Source: an uncultured Prevotellaceae bacterium | GTDB lineage: Bacteria; Bacteroidota; Bacteroidia; Bacteroidales; Bacteroidaceae | Length of the DNA stretch: 64,000 nucleotides | Reading direction: 5' to 3' | Assembly (NCBI GenBank): GCA_902767775.1 | Contig: CACXIP010000015.1 | Coordinates: 1-64,000, forward strand | The notes under the pieces: model-generated | Database searches by the model: none | What the model was told of the DNA's origin: nothing | What the model saw: the letters and a program-made list of their open reading frames with translations, nothing else | In this document: in pieces, positions 3,813-41,795 of the stretch | How positions within the stretch are numbered: the first letter of the stretch is position 1 | Layout of the letters: every line of letters starts with the position of its first letter | Translations under genes and position numbers: made by a program

Positions 3813-3832
3813 GGATGCCTTCTATCAGTGCC

Positions 3833-5230: not shown

Positions 5231-5251
5231 ATCCTTAACGATGATTAGTGA

Positions 5252-13615: not shown

Positions 13616-13627
13616 CATTACGAGCAT

Positions 13628-13659
13628 CAAAGGTAATGCAAACCGAGCATAGAACAAAA
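13628..13659 (-). promoter_or_regulatory. promoter of the NRPS gene
   Basis: Minus-strand TTTTG (13659-13655), 19 bp, TACCTTTG (13635-13628) is a near-ideal Bacteroidota promoter. The start codon at 13615 is 12 nt past the -7 element, so the 5' leader would be only a few nt. The in-frame ATG at 13657 is inside the -33 element and is excluded. Confidence 0.75.
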
Positions 13660-17192: not shown

Positions 17193-17196
17193 GATT

Positions 17197-18720
17197 ATGA
17201 AACTGAAGTTTTTTTCCATAGCAGCATTGGCCTCATTCCTTATGACGGCATGCATGCAGCCCTCCATACCCACCGAGTTCAGCCAGTCGGACAAGTTGCC
17301 CAACATCTATCCCGACTATATCGATGTGACCATCCCCATCAACATAGCACCGCTGACCTTTATGCTTGACGAGCCAAACGACGGTATGGTGGCCCGATAT
17401 TCCATAGACGGTGAGGAGATAGTCTGCGCTGATGCGATGCAACCGGAAGAGGGAGATTGGCGCCAATTGGTAGAGAAAGCCAAGGGCGGGGCTATCGAAG
17501 TGGATGTCTTCTCAAAAAACGGAGAGCAGTGGACACGTTTCAAGCCTTTCCACATCTACGTTTCCCCCGACTCCATCGACCCATATATCAGTTATCGTCT
17601 CATCGCTCCATCATTTGTCACCTACGAGTCGCTCACCATCAACCAACGCTGTTTGGAGAATTATGACGAGGATGTCATCTACGACAATGTCCTCTGCGGA
17701 TTTGAGAAAGACGGCCAATGTATCAACTGCCACCACTACCAGAACTATAATCCACAGCGGATGCAGTTCCATGCCCGTCAGTTCCGTGGCGGTACGCTCA
17801 TCGCTTACGACGGCAAACTCAGGAAAATCAACATGGGCAACGACTCCATCCTGTCGGCAGGTGTGTACCCCGCCTGGCATCCCACCATCAACTACATTGT
17901 CTATTCCACCGACAAAACTCACCAGAGTTTTCACACCACAGCTCCCAACAAGGTGGAGGTCTATGACGGAGAGAGCGACCTCATCGGCTATGACGTGGAA
18001 AACAACGAGGTGACCAACCTGGAGAATGACAGCACCGAGTTTGAGGTATTTCCTTGCTGGGCTCCCGATGGCAAGACGCTTTATTACTGCAGCGCACATT
18101 TCGAGCGCAAGGACACTGCCGTGTCAAAGACGGTGGAAGTGCTGGCACGCTACTCAGAAATCAAATACAACATCTACAAGAAGAGTTTTGACCCCGCCAC
18201 CAAAAGTTTTGGTCCAAGAGAACTGGTGTATGATGCCGCTGCCCATGACCAAAGCGCCACGCTCCCAAGAGTGTCGCCCGACGGTCGTTGGCTCCTCTTC
18301 ACCGCAGGCCAATTTGGCTGTTTCCATATCTGGCACCATGATGCCGATATCTGGATGATGGACTTGCAGACCGGTGAGGTAAGAGCGATGAGCGAAGTGA
18401 ACTCCCCCGACACGGAGAGTTACCACTCCTGGTCGAGCAACGGCCGTTGGGTTATCATCAGCAGTAGGAGGTATGACGGCAACTTCACCCGCCCATTCAT
18501 CGCACATGTTGATGCTAATGGAAAGGGCACCAAACCCTTCGAACTGCCATCGGCATATCCCGACTATCACCGGCAGTTCTTGAGGAGCTACAACATCCCA
18601 GAGTTCATGCGCGGTCCGGTGACCATCAATCCCAAGACTTTCGCCGATGTGCTCAAGGGAGACGCCACTTCGGTGAAATATGTTCCGAGAAAAAAGTGGA
18701 ATGATTCTATCCCCCAATGA
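17197..18720 (+). CDS. TolB/WD40-like propeller lipoprotein with CxxCH motif, copy 1
   Basis: A 507-residue lipoprotein: signal peptide with lipobox LMTAC (Cys19), then a beta-rich N-terminal domain (IYPDYIDVTIPINIAPL), a cysteine-rich segment, and PD40/TolB-type propeller blades with repeated 'SPDGRWLLF' and 'APDGKTLYY' patterns. The cysteine segment holds QRCLENY, a further Cys and CINCH (175-179), a CxxCH motif of the kind that binds covalent heme in c-type cytochromes. The paralogue at 40256-41779 has the same length and keeps these cysteines. Function is unknown; the partner is probably the DUF6057 membrane protein 4 bp upstream. The 3' end overlaps the convergent activase gene by 14 bp. 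Confidence 0.82.
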   Translation: MKLKFFSIAALASFLMTACMQPSIPTEFSQSDKLPNIYPDYIDVTIPINIAPLTFMLDEPNDGMVARYSIDGEEIVCADAMQPEEGDWRQLVEKAKGGAIEVDVFSKNGEQWTRFKPFHIYVSPDSIDPYISYRLIAPSFVTYESLTINQRCLENYDEDVIYDNVLCGFEKDGQCINCHHYQNYNPQRMQFHARQFRGGTLIAYDGKLRKINMGNDSILSAGVYPAWHPTINYIVYSTDKTHQSFHTTAPNKVEVYDGESDLIGYDVENNEVTNLENDSTEFEVFPCWAPDGKTLYYCSAHFERKDTAVSKTVEVLARYSEIKYNIYKKSFDPATKSFGPRELVYDAAAHDQSATLPRVSPDGRWLLFTAGQFGCFHIWHHDADIWMMDLQTGEVRAMSEVNSPDTESYHSWSSNGRWVIISSRRYDGNFTRPFIAHVDANGKGTKPFELPSAYPDYHRQFLRSYNIPEFMRGPVTINPKTFADVLKGDATSVKYVPRKKWNDSIPQ

Positions 18721-19624
18721 CCACCTTCATGCCAAAGGAGGTCAGCAAGGCCGAACAATGATGAAGTGTCTCCTCTGACGGGGTGGACATGTGATAGCCA
18801 TCTGGATTGAATACAGACCACATGCGCTGATGTTTGTCTTTACCCACATCATGATAGGGCAGCAAATGTACGACAGGTTTTTTCCCTGGCAAAGTGTCAA
18901 GGAAAAGACCTGTCTCTTTTATGTTTTCATCATCGGTATTGATACCCTCTATCAAAGGTATACGGATACGGAAGTCATGGCCATTTTCAGCCAGCCAACG
19001 TATGTTGTCCAATATAAGTTGGTTGGGTACACCAGTAAAAAGCCTGTGTTTTTCCGAGTCCATGAGTTTCAGGTCAACAAGCATTAGTTCACATTCCTCA
19101 GCCACCTGAGCAACCACCTGCTGGCTGGCATAGAGAGAAGTGTCCACGGTTCGGTGAAATCCCCTTTTTCGAAGTTCCTTCAGCAGTTGTAACGTATACT
19201 GTGGATGCATCAGAGGTTCGCCACCACAAATGGTCACACCTCCCCCACTCTCCTCCATCACCTCACGTTCCTTCTCTATCTCCGTCATCAACGCCTCCCA
19301 CGTCCACTCCTTGCCGCATATTTCCAATGCCATCGTAGGACACTCCTCAGCGCAACGACCACATAGGAAACAGGCATCCTTTCTGTTGATGATACCTCTT
19401 TCCTCCCATTCCAGCGCATGGTGCGGGCAAGAGTTTACGCAGCTGCGACATCCGAGACATCTGCTTGGCTTGTACAATAACTGTTTGGTTTCTGTCCAAC
19501 TTTCGGGGTTGTGGCACCACACACAACGCAGCGGGCACCCTTTGATGAAGAGTGTTGTCCGAATGCCCGGTCCGTCATTGATGGCATAGCGCTTGATGTC
19601 GAATATCAGTGGTTGTCTCACCAT
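18707..19624 (-). CDS. glycyl radical enzyme activase (radical SAM, PflA/HypE-like)
   Basis: A 305-residue radical SAM enzyme. The SAM-cluster motif is CPLRCVWC (Cys30, 34, 37, the C-x3-C-x2-C pattern). It is followed by two ferredoxin-type 4Fe-4S clusters (Cys56, 59, 62, 66 and Cys85, 88, 91, 95), as in activases of the larger dehydratase-type glycyl radical enzymes rather than simple PflA. Further motifs are DGPGIRT and GGGVTICGGEP. It should install the glycyl radical on the enzyme encoded 5 bp upstream. Oxygen-sensitive chemistry implies an anaerobic lifestyle. Its last 14 bp overlap the 3' end of the convergent propeller gene. Confidence 0.93.
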   Translation of the reverse strand: MVRQPLIFDIKRYAINDGPGIRTTLFIKGCPLRCVWCHNPESWTETKQLLYKPSRCLGCRSCVNSCPHHALEWEERGIINRKDACFLCGRCAEECPTMALEICGKEWTWEALMTEIEKEREVMEESGGGVTICGGEPLMHPQYTLQLLKELRKRGFHRTVDTSLYASQQVVAQVAEECELMLVDLKLMDSEKHRLFTGVPNQLILDNIRWLAENGHDFRIRIPLIEGINTDDENIKETGLFLDTLPGKKPVVHLLPYHDVGKDKHQRMWSVFNPDGYHMSTPSEETLHHCSALLTSFGMKVVIGG

Positions 19625-19629
19625 GTATT

Positions 19630-22017
19630 TTACATCTCTTCGTTCTGTGTCCGTGCAATGATTTCGTTTTGCAATTGCTCGGTCATGTCATTGAAATAGT
19701 CGGAATATCCCGCCACGCGTACGAGGAGGTCGCGGTAGTTCTCCGGATGCCGCTGTGCGTCGTGCAGCGTCTCTGTATCCACCACATTGAATTGGATATG
19801 ATGTCCTCCCATCTTGAAATAAGTCCGGATAAGGCTGCCCAGTTTGCGCATGTCCTCCTCACGGTGGAGCAGGGCCGGAACGAGCCTCACATTGAGGAGA
19901 GTGCCCCCGCTCTTTGTTTGGTCAAGTTTTCCCAGTGACTTGATGACAGCCGTGGGTCCGTGGCTGTCGGAACCATGGGCAGGTGATGTGCCGTCGCTGA
20001 TGGCAAAATGTGCCAGTCGTCCATTAGGTGTCGCCCCACATACAGAACCGAAATAATTGTGACAAGTGGTGCTGAGCATATTGAGATAGGTTTTTCCACC
20101 TCTTGTGTTGGGTCTTCCCTCTATAGCCTTCACCAAATCCTCATAGATGCGTGAGGCGATGGTGTCGGCATAGTCATCGTCGTTGCCGAAGAATGGCGTG
20201 TGGTATCGTATATACTGTCTCATCACCTCATTTCCCTCAAAATTGTTTGCCACCGCCTCAAGGATTTGCTCCATAGTGTAACGCTTATCCTCAAAGACAT
20301 GTTTTTTGATTGTGGTGAAGCAGTCTGTCAGGGTCCCCAACCCGGTGCATTGGATGTAGGTGGTGTTGTATCTTGCCCCGCCGCTGTAATAATCCTTCCC
20401 TTTCTCTATGCAGTCATCGATATACAGGCTGAGGAAGGTGGCTGGTGCATAGAGTGAGAACATCCGCTCGATATAATTGTTGACAGACAGTTTCAGGTTG
20501 ACGAAATACGTCATCTGTTGGTGCCAAGCCTCATAGAGTTGTTCAAACGAATTGAAATCCTTTGGGTCGCCCGTCTGGAGTCCGAGTCTTTTTCCCGTTT
20601 CCGGGTCGATGCCGTTGTTGAGTGTGATTTCCAATATTTTTGGCGTGTTGAGATATCCTGTGAGCAGGTATGCCTCCTTGCCGAACGCCCCTACTTCTAT
20701 ACATCCAGAGCATCCGCCCTCACGTGCATCCTCTTCCGACTTCCCTGCCCGCATCATCTCACGGACATATGTGTCGGGATTGAAGACGGAAGGATATCCA
20801 TGTCCCTGTCTGATAACCTTGATGCCCTCCATTAAGAAATCGTCGGGCGTGTCGTGAGCGATATGGATACTCAGTCCTGGCTGCAACTGATGAAGTTCCT
20901 CCTGAATCTCAAGGATGATATATGACAGTTCGTTGGCAGCGCTTTTGCCATTTCTGTCAATGCCCCCAATGTTGATATTGGTGAAATCGTTGTATGTGCC
21001 CGACTCGAGAGCCGTCACTCCTACCTTTGGCGGTGCCGGTTGGTTGTTGAACTTAATCCAGAGACAACAGAGCAGTTCTTTGGCTTTTTCCCGAGTCAGC
21101 GAACCGTCATCCAATCCTTTCTGATAGAAAGGCATGAGGTGCTGGTCGATATGTCCCGGATTCATGGAGTCCCATCCATTCAGTTCTGTCACGGTGCCAA
21201 GATGCACGAACCAATACATCTGAATTGCTTCCCACAAGTTGCGTGGTGCATGGGCAGGCACCCAGTGGCAGACCTCAGCGATTTTCAGCAGTTCCTGTTT
21301 TCTCTGTTCATTTTTCTCTTCCACAGCCATTTGCTCCGCCAACTGAGCATGCCTTTCAGCGAAAAGAATGGCTGCGTCGCAAGAGACCGCCATTGCCTCA
21401 AGTTCCTGCTGTTTGTCTGTCGCCTCTGGGTCGTAGATGAAATCCAACGCCTCCAATCTCTTCTTGATTCGCTCTTTCACATCAAGGAGGCCTTCCCGGT
21501 ACATCTTTCCATCCATTGCGGTATGTCCTGCAGCACGTTGTTCCATGAACTCGGTGAACACGCCCGCCTGATAGGCCTCCCGCCATTCATCCGACACATG
21601 GTTGAAGATGCGTTCACGCTGTGTCTTTCCCCTCCAGTAGGGAATTACCTCCCTTTGATAGGTGTCGATGTCCTCCTGACTGATGAGATAAGGCTGAAGT
21701 TTCCTACTATTGAGCGTATGAAGGTCCTCTACGGAATGGCAGGTGAGTTCAGGGAAAGTTGGTACCGCCTTGGGTTGGGGTCCTCGCTCCCCAACAATCA
21801 ATTCATCGTCGCCGATATAGATGGTTTTCTTCTTGCAGATTTCATAGAAATTGCGTGCTCTGAGCATGGGCACCGGCATGGTGCCGTAGTTTTTCTTATA
21901 GAAATCTGTCTCTATGAGCGCCCTCTCGATGCTCAGTGTCGTAGGCGTCTGCATGTTTAGCTGTCGCAGTCGTCTGATGCGGGCATTCATGCCTTTGTCG
22001 TTTTCTGAATGTTTCAC
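19630..22017 (-). CDS. hypD: glycyl radical enzyme, HypD-like (trans-4-hydroxy-L-proline dehydratase family)
   Basis: A 795-residue pyruvate-formate-lyase-superfamily protein. The C-terminal glycyl radical motif RVAGYSDYF puts the radical Gly at 770, and the active-site loop GCSGCIEVG gives thiyl Cys439 and Glu441. From memory of Clostridioides difficile HypD (Cys434, Glu436, Gly765), all three are shifted by five residues, and long blocks agree (SIERA start, FTEFMEQRA.GHT, KFNNQPAPPKVG, GHHIQFNV). This supports loss of water from trans-4-hydroxy-L-proline to give pyrroline-5-carboxylate. No proC is adjacent in this window. A related dehydratase with another substrate remains possible. The gene begins 3 bp after the phospholipase stop and precedes its activase, so all three appear co-transcribed. 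Confidence 0.8.
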   Translation of the reverse strand: MKHSENDKGMNARIRRLRQLNMQTPTTLSIERALIETDFYKKNYGTMPVPMLRARNFYEICKKKTIYIGDDELIVGERGPQPKAVPTFPELTCHSVEDLHTLNSRKLQPYLISQEDIDTYQREVIPYWRGKTQRERIFNHVSDEWREAYQAGVFTEFMEQRAAGHTAMDGKMYREGLLDVKERIKKRLEALDFIYDPEATDKQQELEAMAVSCDAAILFAERHAQLAEQMAVEEKNEQRKQELLKIAEVCHWVPAHAPRNLWEAIQMYWFVHLGTVTELNGWDSMNPGHIDQHLMPFYQKGLDDGSLTREKAKELLCCLWIKFNNQPAPPKVGVTALESGTYNDFTNINIGGIDRNGKSAANELSYIILEIQEELHQLQPGLSIHIAHDTPDDFLMEGIKVIRQGHGYPSVFNPDTYVREMMRAGKSEEDAREGGCSGCIEVGAFGKEAYLLTGYLNTPKILEITLNNGIDPETGKRLGLQTGDPKDFNSFEQLYEAWHQQMTYFVNLKLSVNNYIERMFSLYAPATFLSLYIDDCIEKGKDYYSGGARYNTTYIQCTGLGTLTDCFTTIKKHVFEDKRYTMEQILEAVANNFEGNEVMRQYIRYHTPFFGNDDDYADTIASRIYEDLVKAIEGRPNTRGGKTYLNMLSTTCHNYFGSVCGATPNGRLAHFAISDGTSPAHGSDSHGPTAVIKSLGKLDQTKSGGTLLNVRLVPALLHREEDMRKLGSLIRTYFKMGGHHIQFNVVDTETLHDAQRHPENYRDLLVRVAGYSDYFNDMTEQLQNEIIARTQNEEM

Positions 22018-22020
22018 TTT

Positions 22021-25000
22021 TTATTCCTTGTTGTTGATACGTGAACGTCCATTGAATACATACTTGTTGTTTTGTTTGATGACGGCTTGGAGTAGTGCAT
22101 TTCCGCCATTGCTGGTACTTCCCATATAGTCGGCATAGACATAACCCAGCGAACCGTTCAGGTTGGCAATGATGCCTACTGTGTATGGGTTGAGCGTTGC
22201 GGCATACGATGCCGGACTGTTGGCGATATTGAGGAAAGTATAGACAAATCGGAAGTGGTCGGTATTGCTGCTTGCCAAAGACAGCGAGGTGCTCACTTGC
22301 GACTCTTTGTCCGATGTGCTGCTGTTGTAGGCATCCTCTACGCTTGCCCAGCAGTCAGTCCAATTCAATGCCTGCGTCATTCCACAGCTGAAATTATCCA
22401 CGATGTCATCGTCGGGCCAGTTTTCTATGATTGCGCCATATACAACATCACGGTAACCATTGTCGCTGTTGCCGTAAGGATTCTTGCTGACGATAGACAC
22501 CTTGCCACGCACATCATCCAATGTGTGCATGCCTCTGACGCTGGGCATGATGTATGCGCTGCGCGACTCATCCGAGAAACACTCTCTGATGCTTGCTCTC
22601 CATGTCTCACTGTAATCGGTGAGGGAGAAAAGACTGCTGGAATTTTCTTTCTGCATGATGACCGACACCGCCTCACTGGGATTGGTTTTTACGAAGTCGA
22701 TGAGCACATCTATGGCATCCTTGAATTTTACGTCGGTGGACACCATGCCATGATAAATGGTTAGATTGTCGAGCATGATGTCGCTCTCGGAATTGGAAGT
22801 ATAACGCGGTCTCAGGTCAAATGCCCTCACACCATTGGCGAGCAGTCCGGCAAGGTCCTCACTTTGGCATTTAGCAGCAGAAACAGACACCTTGCTTGTG
22901 CATGCATCGTGTGCGCCTGGAGTGGAAAGCATGCTGAAAAAGACATTTCCCGGGATGGTGCTCATCCACAGATTGGTGGGGTGGGTTTCTGTAAAGGATA
23001 GTTTGTTGACCGCCATTGTGGTGATGTCATCGAATTGTTGGCTATAGCATTTTCCATCTGTTGTACGAACCGTTACGAGAAGTCCGTTGTTCAATGTCTG
23101 CGGCAGGAGATACAGCAGATATGTATCCTGTCCGTTGCCCCTAACGGTAACCACATCACTTTGTGCAGAAGAGGCATATGTGGAGGCTTCGCCCGCTGGG
23201 AATGTAAAGGAGACTTCGTCGCCTTTCCTCACCAAGGACATCGGTCCCGCTATGGCAGTATGGTCGGGAGCGAAGACGCTCACACTCTCTGTGTTGGAGA
23301 ACGGCACGTCTATCTGCAATGTCGTCAGCCATTCTGCGATGTCATAATGTGTGCTGACATCCTCACCTGTAAGTGTGCAAGTAGCATTGGTAAGGATATA
23401 GTCAGCACCCTCTGCATTCTCCTCGGCAGATTGCTCAGCAGCCACCAATGCATTGAGCTGAGCGTATGTGTAGGTCATATCGATGTATCGTCTCTCCAAT
23501 CTTCCCGCCAGGACATTAACCAAATAAAGTACATCGGTCACAGTGAAGGATTGGTCATCATTCATGTCAATTCTCTTCAGTTCGCATGTCAGATTCCCAT
23601 ATTTCAACATTCCTACCATGGACATGACGTCGGAGACGGTAAGGTCGCCATCGCTGTTGACATCGCCAGCGAGTATTTTCAGACTCTCAATCAGGTCGGC
23701 AATCTCCTGGTCCTCTGGGTCGAGTCCGTCGGTTTCCGGGTCGTAAAATCGTGTGATTTCGATTCCGTCGGTGGCATAGCACGTCCAATGTTGATTGTTG
23801 CCAGGGTTGCCCTGGTTGCGTATGCCATACTGCCAAGTGCCCAATTGGTCGGCTGTGACGCGCACATAGATGACATTTTGATACAGGCCTTCTTTGAAAG
23901 CGACGAGCGCGCCTCCCTGACCATTGGGATAGTTGTTGCCATCAATGGAGAAATCAGTGGAACCCTCAGTAGGTTTTTCAAATATGCTGCACAGTTGCAC
24001 CTTCGTGTCTCCAAAATAGGCATATACGGGTGGGCTGTCAGCTTTTTGCTGATGAATGGGATAGGCCACATCGTTGGAGGCCATGCGGTTGAAAGCCTGA
24101 ATGGAGAAGCGATAGATGCCCGGTGCCGTGATGTCGAACGAACCGCTCATCACCTCGCCAGTACCCTGGTATTGTTCCGCCGTTGCTGTTGGTTCTGCTT
24201 TGAGGTATGTTTTGGATGTGAGTCCCTCCGTCTCCTCCTCCAATGCGGCGCACTCTTCCCGCAACTGCATCATGTCCGCATGATGGTTGGAAGGATTCTC
24301 CACCATCCATCCGCAGCCACCATCATTCGAACTGTCACCGTCAGTCAGGAGGTTGCCATCTTTGTCTATTCTTACATAGCGTCCCTCCTGTTGCGCGCTT
24401 TCCAGCAGAATCGTCTTACCCTTTGCGATGAAGTGCCAAGTCGATTTCTCCTCCACCGTGCCCCAGTCGGTATATGCCTCTCCGTCGATGTTGTAAAGAT
24501 ATAGACCATTGTCTGCAAATTGAATTGACGTGTTGTTTTCTCCATCGGTAGTGATGACCACCGGCAATCCCCACTCGTCGACGATGGCATGGGTGTTCCA
24601 TGTGTTGCCCCTTGCCAGATAGCGGTGGTCGTAGGTCCGTAGGAAATAGGTTCCGTCGAAAATGGGAATGGTTGTGAGCGACAGCGTCTGTGCTGAGTTG
24701 CCCTCCTGTCCCTCAAAAGCAATGGCACCCGCGGGAATGGAGAGAGAATATGTTGTCTGAGACATCAATTCCGGCACTACAAACGAGAAACCATTTTCTG
24801 TTTCCGTGACCTCCAATGTCTTTCCACTGAGTGTGACGCCGCTGAAATCCAACTTGAGCACAGCATCGGGGTCATTGGTGGAGGTATCGTTGAAAGATAC
24901 GGTGACAGTCTGGCCTGGTTGGATAAACTTGGCGTCTGTCGTCGCCTCCCCGACGTGATAGGCGTAAGAAGTTGGCACAAGTGATATGACAACTGCTGCC

Positions 25001-26277
25001 GATGCTTTCAGGTATAGTTTTCCTGCCGCCAAATCCAAAATCTCGCCCGTTGTGGTTTTCATCTGGTCGGTTACCAATCTGTTCGCTTCCTGTGTAAAAT
25101 AGACAGTTGCATCGCCGTCGACAGAAAGCATATAAGAACCAGCAATAGGTACATCCACGTGATACCAGAAATCGGGCGTAACTGTGGTTTGGGGCAATGC
25201 GAATGCGCCATAACTCACATAAGGAGTTTTCATTTGGCAAACACTGCATGTTGATACCGTCAGCCAGTTGGCACCCTCTTCCAGATTGCCCACCTCGAAG
25301 GAGAGTATTCCATCAGTCACCTCTATGTCTTCGAAATGATAAGTTTTTGGCTCGTAAGCGACAAAGTTGTTGTCATTGATTACCTCGGTAGGTTTTGTGA
25401 TGTTGTTGGCTTTGATGAAAGCGTTGAGTGTGCCATTGCTCACGACTTGGTTGATCCATGCATTGTGAGCCTGGAAAATGATATCCGCACTGTAAGTACC
25501 GTTTTCTACCTCATACACCAACTTCATAACCGGGCCAGTGTAGTGATTGTCCATGTAGTATTCTGGGTAGGTATTATTGTAAAACTTTTGATATCCCTCC
25601 CAATCTTTCAGTCTATAGCTTGTTCCAGGCATGAGCGACTCTGCGGCATTGTAGGCTTCTATTTTGACGTGGTCGATGAAGACCTTGGCATTGTTACCCG
25701 AGCCTTCGGAAACAGCCCCCAGTCCCACGCATATTTTTCCCTTTGTGGGTTCGGAGAGGTGCAGATAGATTTCATCCTCCATCCACGTCTGGTAGAGAAA
25801 ATTGTTGATGATACCATAATGCTCATCACCGTCGTCAGTTATGAAACCGATGAAGTTGAAACTCTGTGTGGCGGATGGACTATTGTTGTATGCGGAGTAT
25901 GAGATGCGATATTTGCCGGCAGGCAGTTCGACTTGCTGCTCATAGCAAATTTTGCCACCCCATCCTGTGCTGATGCCGAGTGCTCCGCCAGAGTTATTTC
26001 CGTCAGGACCGTTAGCAGGTACTTCAGCGCCATTGGCCTGTCCTGTAGTACCATATCCGAAAGCCGCACTTGATGACCACCCTGCACTGGCGGTTAGTTT
26101 CCATCCAGTTACCTCAGCGGAGTTGGGATTTTCAGTAGAAGGCATATTTCCTGATTGCCAGGAACTGCTGTCGTCAAATCCTGCATTGGTCAGGTAGATG
26201 CTCGTCACATCAGTTTGCGCCATAGCATTTGCTGCAAGAAGCAGGAGTACCCATAGTATGAAGTATGTCTTTTTCAT
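22021..26277 (-). CDS. secreted multidomain phosphatidylinositol-specific phospholipase C
   Basis: A 1418-residue exported protein (signal peptide MKKTYFILWVLLLLAANAMA). The N-terminal region (about 25-190) is a beta-sandwich of the carbohydrate-binding kind common in Bacteroidota, followed by several beta-rich segments. Residues about 875-925 form a dockerin-like double EF-hand (DVNSDGDLTVSDV and DMNDDQSFTVTDV). The C-terminal about 320 residues are a PI-PLC X domain: GAHD with His1123 and Asp1124, GVRAFDLRPR, YHGM with His1176, and FVKTNPSEAV, all aligning by eye with Bacillus cereus PI-PLC (His32, Asp33, Arg69, His82). It should cleave phosphatidylinositol or GPI anchors outside the cell. 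No T9SS tail was recognised. It is first in an operon with the HypD-like enzyme and its activase. Confidence 0.85.
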   Translation of the reverse strand: MKKTYFILWVLLLLAANAMAQTDVTSIYLTNAGFDDSSSWQSGNMPSTENPNSAEVTGWKLTASAGWSSSAAFGYGTTGQANGAEVPANGPDGNNSGGALGISTGWGGKICYEQQVELPAGKYRISYSAYNNSPSATQSFNFIGFITDDGDEHYGIINNFLYQTWMEDEIYLHLSEPTKGKICVGLGAVSEGSGNNAKVFIDHVKIEAYNAAESLMPGTSYRLKDWEGYQKFYNNTYPEYYMDNHYTGPVMKLVYEVENGTYSADIIFQAHNAWINQVVSNGTLNAFIKANNITKPTEVINDNNFVAYEPKTYHFEDIEVTDGILSFEVGNLEEGANWLTVSTCSVCQMKTPYVSYGAFALPQTTVTPDFWYHVDVPIAGSYMLSVDGDATVYFTQEANRLVTDQMKTTTGEILDLAAGKLYLKASAAVVISLVPTSYAYHVGEATTDAKFIQPGQTVTVSFNDTSTNDPDAVLKLDFSGVTLSGKTLEVTETENGFSFVVPELMSQTTYSLSIPAGAIAFEGQEGNSAQTLSLTTIPIFDGTYFLRTYDHRYLARGNTWNTHAIVDEWGLPVVITTDGENNTSIQFADNGLYLYNIDGEAYTDWGTVEEKSTWHFIAKGKTILLESAQQEGRYVRIDKDGNLLTDGDSSNDGGCGWMVENPSNHHADMMQLREECAALEEETEGLTSKTYLKAEPTATAEQYQGTGEVMSGSFDITAPGIYRFSIQAFNRMASNDVAYPIHQQKADSPPVYAYFGDTKVQLCSIFEKPTEGSTDFSIDGNNYPNGQGGALVAFKEGLYQNVIYVRVTADQLGTWQYGIRNQGNPGNNQHWTCYATDGIEITRFYDPETDGLDPEDQEIADLIESLKILAGDVNSDGDLTVSDVMSMVGMLKYGNLTCELKRIDMNDDQSFTVTDVLYLVNVLAGRLERRYIDMTYTYAQLNALVAAEQSAEENAEGADYILTNATCTLTGEDVSTHYDIAEWLTTLQIDVPFSNTESVSVFAPDHTAIAGPMSLVRKGDEVSFTFPAGEASTYASSAQSDVVTVRGNGQDTYLLYLLPQTLNNGLLVTVRTTDGKCYSQQFDDITTMAVNKLSFTETHPTNLWMSTIPGNVFFSMLSTPGAHDACTSKVSVSAAKCQSEDLAGLLANGVRAFDLRPRYTSNSESDIMLDNLTIYHGMVSTDVKFKDAIDVLIDFVKTNPSEAVSVIMQKENSSSLFSLTDYSETWRASIRECFSDESRSAYIMPSVRGMHTLDDVRGKVSIVSKNPYGNSDNGYRDVVYGAIIENWPDDDIVDNFSCGMTQALNWTDCWASVEDAYNSSTSDKESQVSTSLSLASSNTDHFRFVYTFLNIANSPASYAATLNPYTVGIIANLNGSLGYVYADYMGSTSNGGNALLQAVIKQNNKYVFNGRSRINNKE

Positions 26278-26305
26278 TGTAGTGATAGAATTAGCATTTT
26301 AGCTA

Positions 26306-26337
26306 CAAAGATAATTCAAATTTAGTGAAAATCAAAA
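26306..26337 (-). promoter_or_regulatory. promoter of the PI-PLC operon
   Basis: Minus-strand TTTTG (26337-26333), 19 bp, TATCTTTG (26313-26306) matches the Bacteroidota consensus. It lies about 30 bp before the phospholipase start. Confidence 0.7.
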
Positions 26338-26465
26338 TGGAATATGTTTCTTTTTTGAATTTGTGAATCTTTGTGTATTCTGCACATATTGTAAACCAAA
26401 AAGTATTTGTAACAAAGCCAATAATAAATAAGTTGATAAAATGCAAGAAAATGATTTTAAGTGCA

Positions 26466-26473
26466 TAATTTTG
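26466..26473 (+). promoter_or_regulatory. -7 element for the GH5-GH43 gene
   Basis: TAATTTTG is an exact consensus match 37 bp upstream of the ATG. No good -33 element was found at normal spacing, which would fit an activator-dependent promoter. It is divergent from the PI-PLC promoter about 150 bp away, so one regulator could serve both. Confidence 0.5.
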
Positions 26474-26510
26474 CACCAAACAAATCAAACCAAACTTTTA
26501 TTTAACAAGA

Positions 26511-29500
26511 ATGAGAAGGATTCTGACTCTTTTTTTATCAGTCCTATTCGCCATGGGAGCATGGTCGCAAGGTGTGAAGCCTCTGCCCACGCTCCATCAG
26601 GAAGGCAAGTGGCTGATGGATGAACACGGCAACCATGTGGTGTTGCACGGTGTGATGGACACCCCTAATGCCTGGTTCAATGGGGGGCGTTGGGGATGGA
26701 GTTACAGCAGCGTATCTCCCTGCATCAACTATTTTGAGAAACTATTTACCGGTCTGGAGAAGGCCAAGTGTGATGTGTTCCGCCTGCACATGGACCCCGC
26801 CTGGACCAATGACCCCAACAAACAGAGTGACGGCAAAGAAAGCGGCGAGGCCGATATCTCCCGATTCAGTTCGGCACGTCTCACCACCTACCTCCGCACA
26901 CTCTACTTCCCTCTCGCCAAACGAGCCATGAACCACGGTATGTATGTCGTGGTGCGCCCGCCGGGAGTATGTCCTGGCAACCTGAAAGTAGGCGACTACT
27001 ACAATCAATATCTGATGACTGTATGGGACATTTTCTCAAAGAATGATTCCATCCGCAAATACTCAGGACAAATCAGCATTGAGCTTGCCAATGAACCTGT
27101 GTCGTTGAAGAATAGCAACGGAGAGGAAGACCCTGCAGCCTTACATGATTTCTTCCAACCTATTGTGGACAAGATTCGTGCCAATGGCTTTACCGGCATT
27201 ATTTGGGTGCCCGGCACTGGCTGGCAGGCCAACTACACGAGTTATGCCACCCACCCCATTGAAGGTTACAACATCGGTTATGCCGTCCACGACTACTGTG
27301 GTTGGTATGGTTGCAGTGACGATACACCCAGTCCGACGAACAAAATCAACCAGTTCCACAAGCAGGTTCCCGTGGTGGACACCAACCCCATCATCATCAC
27401 CGAGGTGGACTGGAGTCCGAAGAAAGAAGGCACCGGCCACTACAACGAGCACAACGAGTGGGTAGAAAGCAATTGGGGCACTTGGGCAACAGGTTCCACC
27501 TCAAAATGGGGCAAGGCTTTTAAAGCCATGCTCGACCACTATGGAAATATCTCAATGACGCTCTCTGGCACCAGTTGCCTCATTGATGTTGACAAACTGC
27601 TTGCCAATGGTTCTGTTGTACCCGCTTTTGATGGTTATGAGGAAGCCTGCGGCAAGGCCTGTATGGACTGGTATGCCGAGTATTATGAAGTAGACTGGCC
27701 CCGTGCAGACTTCAAGGTCAAGTCGGTGAGTGACCAAGGAAACGGACGTTACAAGAACCCCATCATCGCAGCCGATTTCCCCGACCCTGACGTTATCCGC
27801 GTGGGTGACACCTATTATATGGTGACGACGACGATGCACCACTTCCCCGGTGCCACTATTGTTAAATCCAAGGATTTGGTGAACTGGGAATACTGCGCCA
27901 AACCCCTTGTGCAGTTGGCCGCCACCGACCGTTACAATCTACAAAACGGTCAGAACGCCTATGCCGCCGGCATGTGGGCGTGTTCAATGAAATACCATAA
28001 TGGGAGATTCTATCTGCTCATCAACGGCAACGACACAGGCGGTTGGTTGCTTACCGCCACCGACCCTGAGGGTAAATGGGAGCAGAAATCACTCTCGCGC
28101 ATCTACTACGACCCCGGTATGCTGTTTGACAACGGCAAGGTGTATGTGGCATGTGGCATCGGCAATATCCAGATGTGCGAACTTGACGAGAAGTTCAACT
28201 TCATCCAAGAGCGGCGCATCATCAGTGACAAAGACGGACTTGAAGGCAGTCATCTTTACAAAATCGGCGACTACTATTATCTCTACGCCACATATGGCGG
28301 ATGGCCGTCAGGTCAGGCTGTCTTCCGCTCTAAAAACATCTTTGGACCATACGAGGAGAAGATGCTTGTAGAGAAAACCATCAACGGCAAGGTCAATACC
28401 GTTCATCAAGGAGCATTGTTTGACACCCCCAACGGTGAGTGGTGGACCATTATGCAGGAAGACCTCGGTGCCCTTGGCCGCATGCCCAACCTCCAACCTG
28501 TGAAGTGGCAGGATGACTGGCCTATCGTTGGCAATAATGGTGTGCCATATGCCAGCTACACCAAACCCGCAGTTGGGGCGAGTTATCCCCGCACAGGCAT
28601 GCCCACGAACGATAATTTCCGTTCCTATCCTATTGGTCAGCAGTGGGAATGGAACCACAATCCCAACAACGGAGCATGGTCGCTTTTCGAGCGTCAGGGA
28701 TGGTTGCGGCTCAAGACGTCAGACAAAGCAGACCGTCTGACTCAAGCACGCAATATGCTCACCCAGCGCATCTTTGCTTTCACCGACCGAGCATCGGCAG
28801 GAACCATCCGTCTGGATGTGAGCCATTTGGATGAGGGTGACCATGCCGGCATCTGCATTCTCCAAGACCCCTATGCCATGATTGCCATGGAGAAGAAAAA
28901 CGGTCAGTATCAGCTGATTTGGCAGGAGGGAACGCTTAATGAAGGCGAACCGACAAACAAAAGGGTGACTTTGCCTATCGATGAATTGGAAGACGGCATC
29001 ATCTATCTGCGTGCCACGGTGAGTTACAACACCAGCAAGACACAGTTCTATTATTCCACAGACAACCAGACCTTCAACAAGCTTGGCAGAGAGACAACAC
29101 TTGGTTTCAACCTCTCCATCTTTGTCGGTGCCCGTTTTGGACTTTTCTGCTACTCGACACAAGATGACAGTGAGGGATATGCCGACTTCGACTGGTTCTC
29201 CACTGAGGCCAACTTTGAAGAGACCATGTTCTATCCAGAGAACTTCGAGGGATTCAGCGAGGATATGCTCACTGCAGTCGACTTAGTAGTCAAGGGAACA
29301 GCTGCTGAAGTCATGGTAGGCAACAGCGGTCAACTTCAGATTGAAGCGACCTATCGTGATGGCCACAAGGACAATGTTGCAGCACAATGCTGTTTTGAAA
29401 CCGACAACAGTGGTGTGGTTGAAATCAAAAATGGTCAGATTCGCGGACTGAGCGAGGGAAGTGCCAATGTCAACGTGACCTATACAGATCCCATGGGTAA

Positions 29501-30119
29501 TGAACTGATGGGAACGTTCTCCGTGCGCTCCACCTTCTTCCCATTCGGTGCACAATACATCAACACGTCGTTGTTTGCTCAAGGCACATACAACGAAAAC
29601 ACCCGTACCTTCCGTCCCGGCCAATGGGGACAGATGGGTTGGGAATATCCCAATGGAGCTGATATGTCGGGCTACAAATACCTGGTCATCAAACTGAAAC
29701 AAGCTCAAACATGTGGTGCCCACTTGAACATTTTCACGTCGGGCAACATCTGGGGCGACTGTTATGCGTCGAATGATTTCGGTTCAAGAAAACAAATCAA
29801 TATCAACCTGAAGAATGCCAAATACACGTCAGACGGCAAGAAGGGACAACCACTCGACACCAAGAACATCCACATCGTGGACTTCTGGGGTAATGGCAAT
29901 GGCACCATTGTGGTGGAGGATATGTATCTGACCAACAATGACGACTTTTCGCCTATGTCCACCGCCATCCATGACATTATGGTGGCAAGTGATGAACCTG
30001 TGAGCGTGTACACACTGTCAGGTCAACTCATCCGCCGTGGAGCCAATATGCAGGAAGCCATGCAAGGACTGTCACGAGGTATATTTATCATCGGAGGCAA
30101 AAAAGTGGTCATCAGATAA
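26511..30119 (+). CDS. GH5-GH43 bifunctional glycoside hydrolase with T9SS-type tail
   Basis: A 1202-residue secreted enzyme. After a signal peptide (MRRILTLFLSVLFAMGAWS), residues 20-400 are a GH5 (beta/alpha)8 domain with acid/base Glu195 in NEP and nucleophile Glu298 in ITEVDW. Residues about 415-720 are a GH43 five-bladed propeller with the base in DFPDPDV (Asp425). A concanavalin-like GH43 C-terminal domain follows (about 720-900), then an Ig-like segment and another beta domain. The end (GIFIIGGKKVVIR) resembles a type A T9SS sorting tail. The pair would cut a beta-linked backbone and remove arabinofuranosyl or xylosyl units from arabinoxylan or arabinogalactan-like glycans; the exact substrate cannot be read. 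A hairpin terminator separates it from the GH27 gene, which has its own promoter. Confidence 0.88.
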   Translation: MRRILTLFLSVLFAMGAWSQGVKPLPTLHQEGKWLMDEHGNHVVLHGVMDTPNAWFNGGRWGWSYSSVSPCINYFEKLFTGLEKAKCDVFRLHMDPAWTNDPNKQSDGKESGEADISRFSSARLTTYLRTLYFPLAKRAMNHGMYVVVRPPGVCPGNLKVGDYYNQYLMTVWDIFSKNDSIRKYSGQISIELANEPVSLKNSNGEEDPAALHDFFQPIVDKIRANGFTGIIWVPGTGWQANYTSYATHPIEGYNIGYAVHDYCGWYGCSDDTPSPTNKINQFHKQVPVVDTNPIIITEVDWSPKKEGTGHYNEHNEWVESNWGTWATGSTSKWGKAFKAMLDHYGNISMTLSGTSCLIDVDKLLANGSVVPAFDGYEEACGKACMDWYAEYYEVDWPRADFKVKSVSDQGNGRYKNPIIAADFPDPDVIRVGDTYYMVTTTMHHFPGATIVKSKDLVNWEYCAKPLVQLAATDRYNLQNGQNAYAAGMWACSMKYHNGRFYLLINGNDTGGWLLTATDPEGKWEQKSLSRIYYDPGMLFDNGKVYVACGIGNIQMCELDEKFNFIQERRIISDKDGLEGSHLYKIGDYYYLYATYGGWPSGQAVFRSKNIFGPYEEKMLVEKTINGKVNTVHQGALFDTPNGEWWTIMQEDLGALGRMPNLQPVKWQDDWPIVGNNGVPYASYTKPAVGASYPRTGMPTNDNFRSYPIGQQWEWNHNPNNGAWSLFERQGWLRLKTSDKADRLTQARNMLTQRIFAFTDRASAGTIRLDVSHLDEGDHAGICILQDPYAMIAMEKKNGQYQLIWQEGTLNEGEPTNKRVTLPIDELEDGIIYLRATVSYNTSKTQFYYSTDNQTFNKLGRETTLGFNLSIFVGARFGLFCYSTQDDSEGYADFDWFSTEANFEETMFYPENFEGFSEDMLTAVDLVVKGTAAEVMVGNSGQLQIEATYRDGHKDNVAAQCCFETDNSGVVEIKNGQIRGLSEGSANVNVTYTDPMGNELMGTFSVRSTFFPFGAQYINTSLFAQGTYNENTRTFRPGQWGQMGWEYPNGADMSGYKYLVIKLKQAQTCGAHLNIFTSGNIWGDCYASNDFGSRKQININLKNAKYTSDGKKGQPLDTKNIHIVDFWGNGNGTIVVEDMYLTNNDDFSPMSTAIHDIMVASDEPVSVYTLSGQLIRRGANMQEAMQGLSRGIFIIGGKKVVIR

Positions 30120-30138
30120 TCAGCAGATTTAGTGTATT

Positions 30139-30176
30139 AGAGGTGTGTCTTTTGTGGGACACACCTCTTTTGCTTT
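30139..30176 (+). terminator. terminator after GH5-GH43
   Basis: Stem AGGTGTGTC/GACACACCT (30141-30166) is followed by CTTTTGCTTTTTCT. It begins 21 bp after the stop codon. Confidence 0.85.
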
Positions 30177-30299
30177 TTCTATAATACAGCTATCGCAAAT
30201 TATAAGTAGTTGTGTAGTTGATGTAGTAGTTGAAGTTGTTGAGCTTTACATGGAACGTTTTTTTGTATCCATTTAGTAGATTATTTGACGTTTTTTTTC

Positions 30300-30307
30300 T
30301 AATTTTG
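30300..30307 (+). promoter_or_regulatory. -7 element for the GH27 gene
   Basis: TAATTTTG lies 31 bp before the ATG at 30339 and follows the GH5-GH43 terminator. No clear -33 element was seen, similar to the GH5-GH43 promoter. Confidence 0.55.
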
Positions 30308-30338
30308 CCAACATCACAAACTACTCATTTTTATTATT

Positions 30339-32855
30339 ATGAAAAAAGCTTTACTCATTTCATTATTGTCCGTGCTGATGGCATGGACATACTTACCCGT
30401 TCAGGCACAAGACGATATGGCGACATTCCGAACATGGGCTTTGACACCACCGATGGGTTGGAACTCATGGGATTGTTATTACTCCTCCGTTACTGAGAAA
30501 GAAGTGATGCAGAACGCCAAATATCTTGTTGACAATGACCTTGTCAAATATGGATGGGAATACGTTGTCATTGACATCAGATGGTATTGCAACCATCCAT
30601 CTTTAGGTGGCGGCAATTACAATCAACGAGGTACTCAGGATTATGTATTAGATGAGTATGGCAGATACCTGCCCTCACCCACCCGATTCCCCTCCGCTAT
30701 AGTAGACGGAGTCAACCAAGGCTTCAAGGCTATAGCCGACAGTCTTCACAAGATGGGGCTCAAACTGGGCATCCACATCATGCGAGGTGTCCCATCGTCA
30801 GTAATTGGTGGCAACTATCGGCTCAAGGGCAGCGAGTCTACGCCTTGGAATCAGGTTTACAGCAGTACTACATCGCCATGCACATGGCTGAAAGACAATC
30901 TGTTGGTGCGCAACAACCAATATGGTCAGCAATATTACAACAGCATCATGGACCTTTATGCCCAGTGGGGTGTCGACTTCATCAAGGTTGATGACCTCTC
31001 ACGTCCATTCTATACTGATGAGATACACATGATTCGCAAAGCCATCGACCAAACAGGCCGTCCTATTGTCCTGTCGCTCAGTCCGGGCAAGACGCAATAT
31101 ACCTATGCAGAAGAATGCTTGGATAATGCCAACATGTGGCGAATGATGGATGACCTATGGGACAACTGGAGCGATGTGGACGCTGTATTCAATGAGGCCA
31201 ATTTCTGGAGTCAGCACACCCGTCCGGGTAATTTCGCTGACTGCGACATGCTTCCATTGGGTCAAATCGCGATGACCATCAGTGACCCAGGCTACACCGC
31301 AGCCCAAAACGGACGTTGGACCCGTCTGACACAGAATGAGCAGCAATCAATGATGACGTTATGGGGTATTTGCCATTCACCTCTCTTTTTTGGTGGAGAG
31401 ATGACGCGTAATGATGCATTCACGCTCTCTTTGCTGAACAATGAGGAATATCATCAAATGCACAAATATGGAGAGGATGCGCATCAGGTAATGAATGACG
31501 AAGACAAGGGCCGAGTGGCATGGACATCAACCGACCCAGCCACAGGAAACCGATATCTGGCATTGTTTCAGCGTGACAATACCCGCTGGATTGTAGGCAG
31601 CAAGGCACTCTATTGTTCAGAAACCGTATCATACACGACCGACGGCCATGCTGTCGATGTAGATATAGAATGGCCAGAAGGCAGCAAGATACTTGTCTTG
31701 GTGATTGACGACGGTGGAGACAACTACAACTACGACCATGGTGACTGGATTAACCCCACCCTGATTCTGAGAGATGGGTCGGAAGTGGCGCTCACCGGTT
31801 CATATAAGACACGCGACTATACCAAATCCTATTTCAACCGCATCTATGAGAATAGGAATGTGGACAACGGAGGAAAGATGAAAGTGATGGGTGAAACCTA
31901 CGACCGCGGATTCTCTGCTGACGCCAATGCCGCCATATTCTTTCAGATACCCGATGGTATGGATGTGGTGCGTTTCAAGGCGATGGCAGCAGCCGACGAC
32001 TCCGGTATCGGACAGTCTGGTTCTACCACGACAATCCGCTTTATGGTGTTCGACCAGAATCCCCTCAGCAGTGAGCAAGACGACTATGCCGCTCGCTCCG
32101 GTTTGATTTCCCGTACTGGAACGAAATCCAAAATACTGGAAGCCGATGTAACTGGTGCCGAGCAGTTGAAGATTGTCGTGAGCAACTACGGTGATGGGTT
32201 CGCATACGACAGAGCCGACCTCATCAATCCTGTGCTGATTGATGTTGAAGGAAATGAGACATCCCTCACAACATTGAAAGCCACTTCCTACACATCAGAA
32301 TGGGGGACGCTCCACACGAACCAGAACGTCGAAGGCGGAACGCTCCGTGTAGAAGGTCAGGCATACACCACGGGGTTGGGGCTCAATGCTCAGTGCACAC
32401 TCATTTATGATCTTCCCGAGGGCCATACTTATACCACGTTTCGTGCCCTTTGCGGTTATGATTCCAGTTGTGACCAAGACAACACCTCTTCTTCTGGAAC
32501 TACGATGGAGTTTATCTTCTATGTTACCAAAAGCGATTCTTTTGACTTTGACCTCACCCAATTGGGTTATGGAGCCGAAGAGTCGGTACCTGTTTATGAT
32601 GTCTGGGCCAAACATGATGTAGGCGCCGCCGTCGGTATTTTGTCGTCTGAAGTGCCCAGCCATGGAGTAAAACTTTACCGTTTGGGCGACAGTGTTGCTG
32701 ATGGCATTGAGTCAATCAACCAAGACAACTCTTCTGACAGGTATCATCGTGAAACCATCGAATCACCTGTTTACTTCAACGTGATGGGCATCGCCACACA
32801 TCATCCAGGCAGAGGCATATATGTCAAAGATGGGAGAAAGATAGTTGTGAGATAG
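30339..32855 (+). CDS. GH27 alpha-galactosidase/beta-L-arabinopyranosidase-like enzyme with NPCBM domains
   Basis: An 838-residue secreted protein. Signal peptide to about residue 23, then a GH27 barrel (about 30-420) opening with TPPMGWNSWDCY. Nucleophile candidate Asp218 is in FIKVDDLS and acid/base candidate Asp303 in ADCDMLPLG. Two NPCBM-type beta-sandwiches follow (about 455-600 and 615-770); they share the pattern 'GDWINP/ADLINP.L...G' and 'RGFSADANA / TGLGLNAQC'. The C terminus GIYVKDGRKIVVR resembles a T9SS tail like that of the GH5-GH43 protein. GH27 members release terminal alpha-galactose or, in some, beta-L-arabinopyranose from plant glycans. A strong bidirectional terminator follows. 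Confidence 0.87.
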   Translation: MKKALLISLLSVLMAWTYLPVQAQDDMATFRTWALTPPMGWNSWDCYYSSVTEKEVMQNAKYLVDNDLVKYGWEYVVIDIRWYCNHPSLGGGNYNQRGTQDYVLDEYGRYLPSPTRFPSAIVDGVNQGFKAIADSLHKMGLKLGIHIMRGVPSSVIGGNYRLKGSESTPWNQVYSSTTSPCTWLKDNLLVRNNQYGQQYYNSIMDLYAQWGVDFIKVDDLSRPFYTDEIHMIRKAIDQTGRPIVLSLSPGKTQYTYAEECLDNANMWRMMDDLWDNWSDVDAVFNEANFWSQHTRPGNFADCDMLPLGQIAMTISDPGYTAAQNGRWTRLTQNEQQSMMTLWGICHSPLFFGGEMTRNDAFTLSLLNNEEYHQMHKYGEDAHQVMNDEDKGRVAWTSTDPATGNRYLALFQRDNTRWIVGSKALYCSETVSYTTDGHAVDVDIEWPEGSKILVLVIDDGGDNYNYDHGDWINPTLILRDGSEVALTGSYKTRDYTKSYFNRIYENRNVDNGGKMKVMGETYDRGFSADANAAIFFQIPDGMDVVRFKAMAAADDSGIGQSGSTTTIRFMVFDQNPLSSEQDDYAARSGLISRTGTKSKILEADVTGAEQLKIVVSNYGDGFAYDRADLINPVLIDVEGNETSLTTLKATSYTSEWGTLHTNQNVEGGTLRVEGQAYTTGLGLNAQCTLIYDLPEGHTYTTFRALCGYDSSCDQDNTSSSGTTMEFIFYVTKSDSFDFDLTQLGYGAEESVPVYDVWAKHDVGAAVGILSSEVPSHGVKLYRLGDSVADGIESINQDNSSDRYHRETIESPVYFNVMGIATHHPGRGIYVKDGRKIVVR

Positions 32856-41779: not shown

Positions 41780-41795
41780 GTCCTTTCAAATCAGT

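Follow-up and report, generated by a model that had tools for sequence, protein, structure and literature searches.

In the HypD family the activase installs the glycyl radical and HypD converts trans-4-hydroxy-L-proline to P5C, and C. difficile provides the reference system for HypD and its activase. In bacterial PI-PLC the catalytic set is H32, D33, R69, H82 and D274. Enzymes with the fold and residues of the Bacillus-type PI-PLC cut GPI, according to PMC5773145 and PMC7575579, and the former states that strand Vb is absent from the Listeria enzyme, a poor GPI cleaver. PMC5773145 also describes an expansion of PI-PLC in plant-pathogenic fungi, proposed to free GPI-anchored proteins.

When analysing a stretch of 64,000 nt (the window), a minus-strand run was found in the order PI-PLC, HypD and activase, with gaps of 3 bp and then 5 bp. 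A preliminary description of this DNA had reported such a tight run with GH5-GH43 and GH27 genes divergent to it, and all these genes were located where it had placed them:

18707..19624, minus strand: radical SAM glycyl radical enzyme activase (PF04055 and 4Fe-4S domains)
19630..22017, minus strand: HypD, trans-4-hydroxy-L-proline dehydratase, with a GTG start (NF043068 over cut-off)
22021..26277, minus strand: secreted multi-module PI-PLC protein, 1418 aa long, opening the run (PF00388 over cut-off; signal peptide recognised by eye)
26306..26336, minus strand: Bacteroidetes-type promoter motif TTTG-N19-TATCTTTG, 28 nt upstream of the PI-PLC start codon
26511..30119, plus strand: GH5-GH43 protein, divergent to the run (domain search)
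30339..32855, plus strand: GH27, predicted beta-L-arabinopyranosidase (domain search, Ile80)

The same promoter motif is situated at 3846-3876 in L140, one of two further genomes with the run, while the 400 bp directly ahead of hypD, which close the PLC gene, contain no TAnnTTTG, and this pattern is consistent with the earlier proposal of an operon. The motif was matched nine times in total and one match, inside the activase gene (18863-18893), was regarded as a chance occurrence. The 1342-aa neighbour (9629-13657) was dropped as a candidate regulator, being a one-module NRPS.

The claim that the first gene encodes a secreted PI-PLC with all catalytic residues holds with regard to the five residues (H1123, D1124, R1156, H1176 and D1383) and the fold, but this domain makes up no more than the C-terminal quarter of the protein, which is multi-module:

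22066..22989, minus strand: PI-PLC domain, residues 1097-1404, over which the Bacillus-type enzyme aligns
23014..23457, minus strand: fimbrillin-like (Mfa_like_1) module, residues 941-1088 (29.1 bits, cut-off 27)
23509..23670, minus strand: dockerin type I module, residues 870-923 (24.2 bits, cut-off 22.9, when these residues were submitted alone; the whole protein at E 0.001 did not list dockerin)

The score for PF00388 (PI-PLC-X) was 26.4 bits with a cut-off of 23.1. An alignment of 17 PI-PLC rows, the window's included, revealed that the catalytic H, R, H and last D are kept in all of them, while the equivalent of D33 is D in 12 and N in five. When a structure model of residues 881-1418 was searched with Foldseek, the best 24 matches were all small bacterial PI-PLCs, with a best E of 3.7e-19 and a TM by target of 0.82. 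Two strands are modelled directly ahead of D1315/Y1317 in a stretch that aligns with the Bacillus enzyme, and might include strand Vb. By its residues and predicted fold the domain is a bacterial-type PI-PLC (EC 4.6.1.13). The model of residues 20-871 (pLDDT 54.9) was too poor for a structure search, and among relatives of the N-terminal modules no catalytic Pfam domain was found, only cohesin, Ig-like, small accessory or DUF domains.

The second gene product scored 1141.6 bits against NCBIfam NF043068 (cut-off 1100), its copies in the two further genomes scoring 1132.6 (G239) and 1132.8 bits (L140), and its best PDB sequence match was 6vxc. All 14 HypD residues checked are kept at an offset of n+5, the fourteenth being G765. 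The remaining thirteen, given in PMC7077986, are F152, R156, H160, W277, D278, K326, S334, D339, F340, C434, E436, Y450 and T645. Asp292, also named there, was kept out of the count because the aligned 6vxc chain, as well as the window HypD, has Phe there. Judged by the curated model and these residues, the HypD-like glycyl radical enzyme of the preliminary description is HypD. The activase is over the cut-off of the general activase family TIGR02494 but misses the HypD-activase equivalog, its best model NF043069 giving 326.9 bits (cut-off 425) and 324.9 bits for the L140 activase.

The same gene order was found in two other genomes, G239 (the L139 record) and L140, the gaps in the three genomes being 3/5, 3/5 and -4/0 bp. 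The arrangement is thus not unique to this strain, and a strain-specific accident or an assembly artefact is ruled out. Compared with the window, dS was 0.45-0.50 in one genome and 1.2-1.7 for the three genes in L140, whose PLC is 76% identical to that of the window (dS about 1.5). With dN/dS of 0.05-0.11 for the three genes (0.11 for the PLC), all three are under purifying selection. Conservation of the run, which the preliminary description had put forward as a check, hence extends to two further genomes but is not general in the genus: among 398 genomes the PLC adjoins hypD in two of the 55 that have hypD, the window's included. In a named scan for PLC, restricted to two peptide patterns so that distant relatives were missed, the link appeared in two of 18 loci. 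A general partnership of PLC and hypD is therefore ruled out. In a sample of relatives (149 genomes, E 1e-60) only G000 and G047 were recovered, and in G047 PLC and hypD are both present but unlinked.

Elsewhere in the genus hypD occurs in many different settings (53 other loci). At least 28 of these have a gene for an M24 Xaa-Pro-type peptidase in the vicinity of hypD, and at least four have a P5C-dehydrogenase-type gene there, both counts being lower bounds because a simple ORF picker was used and contigs sometimes end near hypD. The M24 neighbours are over Pfam cut-offs but over no NCBIfam Xaa-Pro equivalog cut-off; of the dehydrogenases one member was scored, over the TIGR01236 cut-off, and the hypD locus of L076 contains PutA. 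The window's own genome has M24 peptidases 43% and 64% identical to the two hypD-neighbour families. Since M24 genes recur beside hypD, and genes of P5C-oxidising enzymes occasionally lie there too, hydroxyproline peptides are the likely supply for hypD, and from the gene neighbourhoods the catabolism of such peptides looks like the core, with the phospholipase as a late addition.

The divergent glycoside hydrolases were earlier proposed to strip the sugars of the glycoprotein. GH27 Ile80 corresponds to Ile67 of GsAbp, as counted along the printed alignment, and has the mark of beta-L-arabinopyranosidases, Ile or Glu replacing the Asp of alpha-galactosidases, so the enzyme is predicted to be one. 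Its first PDB match was 3cc1 (named putative alpha-N-acetylgalactosaminidase) and its second 4nx0 (named Abp). This much agrees with the proposal, but GH27 was not found in the genome of L140 (a search without positive control, genome completeness not given) and GH5-GH43 is common in the genus. The latter, with enzymes acting on xylan and arabinofuranosides as the matches of its GH43 part, is kept in L140 (88%) and was found in 101 of the 398 genomes, with at most two candidates scored per genome; it lies within 10 kb of hypD only in G000 and G157 and is ruled out as a steady partner of hypD. In G239 it is on a separate contig from hypD, and in G266 the two share a contig but are separated by 2.4 Mb. 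Of the 55 hypD genomes 36 also have GH5-GH43, where 14 would be expected (without correction for genome size or kinship), which suits a plant-feeding life. No galactanase family was found among the 18 window proteins scanned; six GH127-like genes are present on other contigs of the genome.

Tentatively, and at somewhat under an even chance, we read the run as an operon for hydroxyproline catabolism in rumen-type Prevotella, of a variant form in which the PI-PLC would free GPI-anchored arabinogalactan proteins. One promoter would drive the secreted, dockerin-bearing PI-PLC of Bacillus type and, behind it, HypD with the activase, so that protein release and hydroxyproline use would be induced jointly. 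From what is known of the family, the activase would form the glycyl radical on HypD, HypD would turn trans-4-hydroxy-L-proline into P5C, and a P5C reductase, the domain of which is present in the genome but encoded elsewhere, would reduce P5C to proline. The hydroxyproline would probably originate from plant hydroxyproline-rich glycoproteins via Xaa-Pro peptidases, and the dockerin and beta modules may keep the PI-PLC bound to its glycoprotein target or within some larger assembly. The least certain step is that arabinogalactan proteins of the plasma membrane would have their GPI anchor cut by the PI-PLC; release of GPI-anchored plant glycoproteins appears plausible, with an unrelated target among lipids roughly equally likely. 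The further claim, that the operon couples a GPI-anchor-cutting secreted phospholipase to anaerobic hydroxyproline catabolism in a pathway beginning at the lipid anchor of a plant protein, we consider rather unlikely.

A serious contender, also short of even, is that, in an ancestor shared by the three genomes, hypD and the activase came to lie downstream of a PI-PLC gene unrelated to them and use its promoter without any common substrate, the PI-PLC scavenging lipid or inositol-phosphate from the membranes of plants or protozoa (PI and glycosyl inositol phosphorylceramides). The many settings of hypD and its activase fit such a move, as do the PI-PLC domains in 69 of the 398 genomes and the 16 of 18 named PLC loci that have no hypD beside them within the stretch fetched; no hydroxyproline gene adjoins the other PI-PLC loci, as judged by clustering the genes around them and comparing these with genes of the window only. 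The linked rows also form one clade both on the HypD tree (55 rows; L122, below 700 aa, left out) and on the PLC tree (18 rows; the duplicates L081, L097 and L098 left out, and L155, which did not cluster), a pattern that counts for the operon reading as well. Against it, the join survives to dS above 1 although the next genes have changed, PD40 and DUF6057 being absent at that place in L140, and HypD and PLC co-occur in 17 genomes where 9.5 are expected (p 0.006, with neither kinship nor genome size corrected for).

The preliminary description saw no other obvious explanation for the pairing, which went too far, as the genome has a myo-inositol-phosphate synthase and inositol-lipid gene clusters are common in Prevotella according to PMC9246714, so that the PI-PLC might target the inositol lipids of bacteria, whether of its own cell or of neighbouring ones, in membrane turnover or competition, with hypD linked incidentally; this is improbable, the synthase gene not being near the locus (contig C1 against C15) and a dockerin with several beta modules being presumably more usual for polymer-degrading secreted enzymes.

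Should the joint substrate of the operon reading be true, the run would represent a commensal nutrient pathway starting with the freeing of GPI-anchored plant proteins; a literature search, with most subscription journals outside its scope, found no paper on such a pathway. Even if it is wrong, the genus offers a testable picture in which hypD repeatedly goes with M24 genes, now and then with enzymes that oxidise P5C, while a single small lineage has added the phospholipase.

Compared with known systems, the run resembles the HypD and HypD activase of PMC7077986 in its 14 of 14 residues, adjoining activase and P5C reductase in the genome, whereas it opens with a secreted PI-PLC, has its reductase gene elsewhere and an activase below the equivalog cut-off. 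The Bacillus/Staphylococcus-type PI-PLCs (PDB 1ptd, 3v18) share the catalytic residues and, with a TM by target of about 0.8, the fold, at 20-24% identity in fold alignments, while the window domain is the C-terminal quarter of 1418 aa with dockerin, fimbrillin-like and beta modules. GH27 has the key Ile of Abp (4nx0) but carries extra NPCBM modules and was not found in the genome of L140. The fungal PI-PLCs of PMC5773145 are likewise secreted, of bacterial type, from plant-attacking organisms and with a similar proposed target, in a fungal system for which the available part mentions no hydroxyproline gene. Also related are the 53 hypD loci of the same genus, with HypD 76-86% identical and an activase found in 39; where those of the M24 type have peptidase genes, the window run has a PI-PLC.

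The preliminary description had placed three genes on the minus strand and two divergent glycosidase genes in this region, and the positions agree with that layout:

9629-13657, minus strand: one-module NRPS (condensation, adenylation, carrier, reductase)
15300-18720, plus strand: DUF6057 and PD40 gene pair, copy 1
18707-19624, minus strand: activase
19630-22017, minus strand: HypD
22021-26277, minus strand: PI-PLC protein
26511-30119, plus strand: GH5-GH43
30339-32855, plus strand: GH27
40256-43625, minus strand: DUF6057 and PD40 gene pair, copy 2

The gaps within the three-gene run are 3 and 5 bp, and a Bacteroidetes-type promoter motif (consensus TTTG-N19-TATCTTTG) was identified 28 nt upstream of the PI-PLC start. 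Shuffled sequence predicts 0.83 occurrences of this pattern, and the window has 9. The same motif lies upstream of the PI-PLC gene in the linked relative L140 (Prevotella sp. Tb.RUG.168), with a small interrupted gene (L140, 3880-4586) situated in between. A motif scan of the final 400 bp of the PI-PLC gene did not find TAnnTTTG.

HypD scored 1141.6 bits, over the curated model cut-off of 1100, and the solved structure closest to it by sequence is a hydroxyproline dehydratase, 6vxc. All 14 residues checked are kept, namely 13 drawn from passages of PMC7077986 and G765. The gene after hypD encodes a radical SAM activase, for which HypD activase is the best model, with a score below the cut-off of that model.

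The product of the first gene in the run is 1418 aa long. It combines a signal peptide (read by eye), an extended part to which no domain name could be given with confidence, a dockerin and a fimbrillin-like module, and the PI-PLC domain is at its C-terminal end. The predicted structure of residues 881-1418 is good (pLDDT 85.9), and a fold search with this model gave small bacterial PI-PLCs as the 24 top matches, followed by calcium-dependent Pseudomonas ones. A second protein of the window genome (C4:221351-221710; L138, 2303-5137) matches PI-PLC-X weakly, at a score under the cut-off, and also matches DUF4421.

Among 398 genomes of the same genus, screened for both proteins, a PI-PLC domain was found in 69 and HypD in 55, with the two adjacent only in the window genome and in G239, where the gaps are those of the window and HypD and the phospholipase are 95% and 90% identical; a further genome, G047, encodes both on different contigs. 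Scanning named genomes with an alignment of five PI-PLC sequences yielded 18 loci. Each comes from a metagenome assembly, and the titles name yak rumen (3), omasum (2; yak, roe deer), red deer (1), RUG (5) and RUI (1), both standing for rumen, or no such word (6). HypD follows in two of them, L139 (the same record as G239) and L140. Between L140 and the window identity is 88% for the divergent GH5-GH43, 76% for the full-length phospholipase, 90% for HypD and 74% for the activase, with dN/dS of 0.11, 0.05 and 0.11 and dS of 1.5, 1.2 and 1.7 for the last three. The three linked rows group together on both trees (HypD SH-aLRT 99, phospholipase 100/100). Conservation of the neighbourhood in relatives, the check earlier proposed, holds for G239 and L140; adjacency was found in 2 genomes of 398 and 2 of the 18 named loci.

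The genes next to the linked run differ. In L140 the activase gene is followed by an acetylxylan esterase gene, 89% identical to that of the window, the first DUF6057 and PD40 pair being absent between them, and beyond the esterase gene sits a 67% relative of the window NRPS. The best NCBIfam model for the window NRPS is aureusimine synthetase, with a score far below cut-off. The two DUF6057 and PD40 pairs of the window are inverted and flank the region, their proteins being 45% and 65% identical between copies.

In 53 further hypD loci (one per sampled hypD genome, minus the window genome and G239), a gene for an M24 peptidase with aminopeptidase-P-type domains lies within four genes of hypD in 28, and one for a HEFAH-motif lipoprotein in 20. 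A gene for malate or lactate dehydrogenase is this close in 16 loci, and a gene of one aldehyde dehydrogenase family in 4; the single protein scored from that family passes the TIGR01236 cut-off as a P5C dehydrogenase. In L076 a PutA-like gene is located two genes downstream of hypD. From two M24 families one protein each was scored; these exceed Pfam cut-offs and stay under the NCBIfam Xaa-Pro equivalog cut-offs. The neighbours of hypD support the view that HypD serves, in this genus, to use hydroxyproline released from peptides. On other contigs the window genome carries M24 peptidases 43% and 64% identical to the two M24 families found near hypD, and a single P5C reductase domain. The HEFAH proteins (L108, 8435-9289, and relatives; lipoproteins by eye) have no Pfam match and may be an unnamed metallopeptidase family. 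In L072 the gene immediately after hypD, on the same strand (3080-6847), encodes a 60% GH5-GH43 relative, and hypD there also has peptidase neighbours.

Use of GPI-anchored, hydroxyproline-rich plant glycoproteins had been proposed for the locus. Passages of PMC5773145 and PMC7575579 state that bacterial PI-PLCs cut PI and GPI, and that a plant-attacking fungus is rich in bacterial-type PI-PLCs, proposed to free GPI-anchored proteins; plant arabinogalactan proteins can carry a GPI anchor (PMC8424115). The adjoining GH27 has Ile80 at the site where Ile or Glu marks beta-L-arabinopyranosidases (PMC4598101). Among HypD genomes GH5-GH43 occurs in 36 of 55 against 14 expected (uncorrected statistic), and PI-PLC in 17 against 9.5, a mild, uncorrected excess (p 0.006). 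Counted against a shared plant substrate are that a search of the L140 genome, run without positive control, did not find GH27; that GH5-GH43 is common in the genus, its GH43 matches being xylan and arabinofuranoside enzymes; that 16 of the 18 named phospholipase loci have no hypD alongside; and that the window genome may make its own inositol lipids, since it encodes the first enzyme of inositol synthesis (compare PMC9246714). On balance, a plant substrate shared by PI-PLC and HypD is a reasonable hypothesis rather than something demonstrated, and the earlier proposal is supported in part. No title or opening of an abstract among the literature matches listed describes such a PI-PLC-hypD operon. 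Compared with the known hydroxyproline-catabolism locus, the one described here is a real variant of it, conserved and rare.
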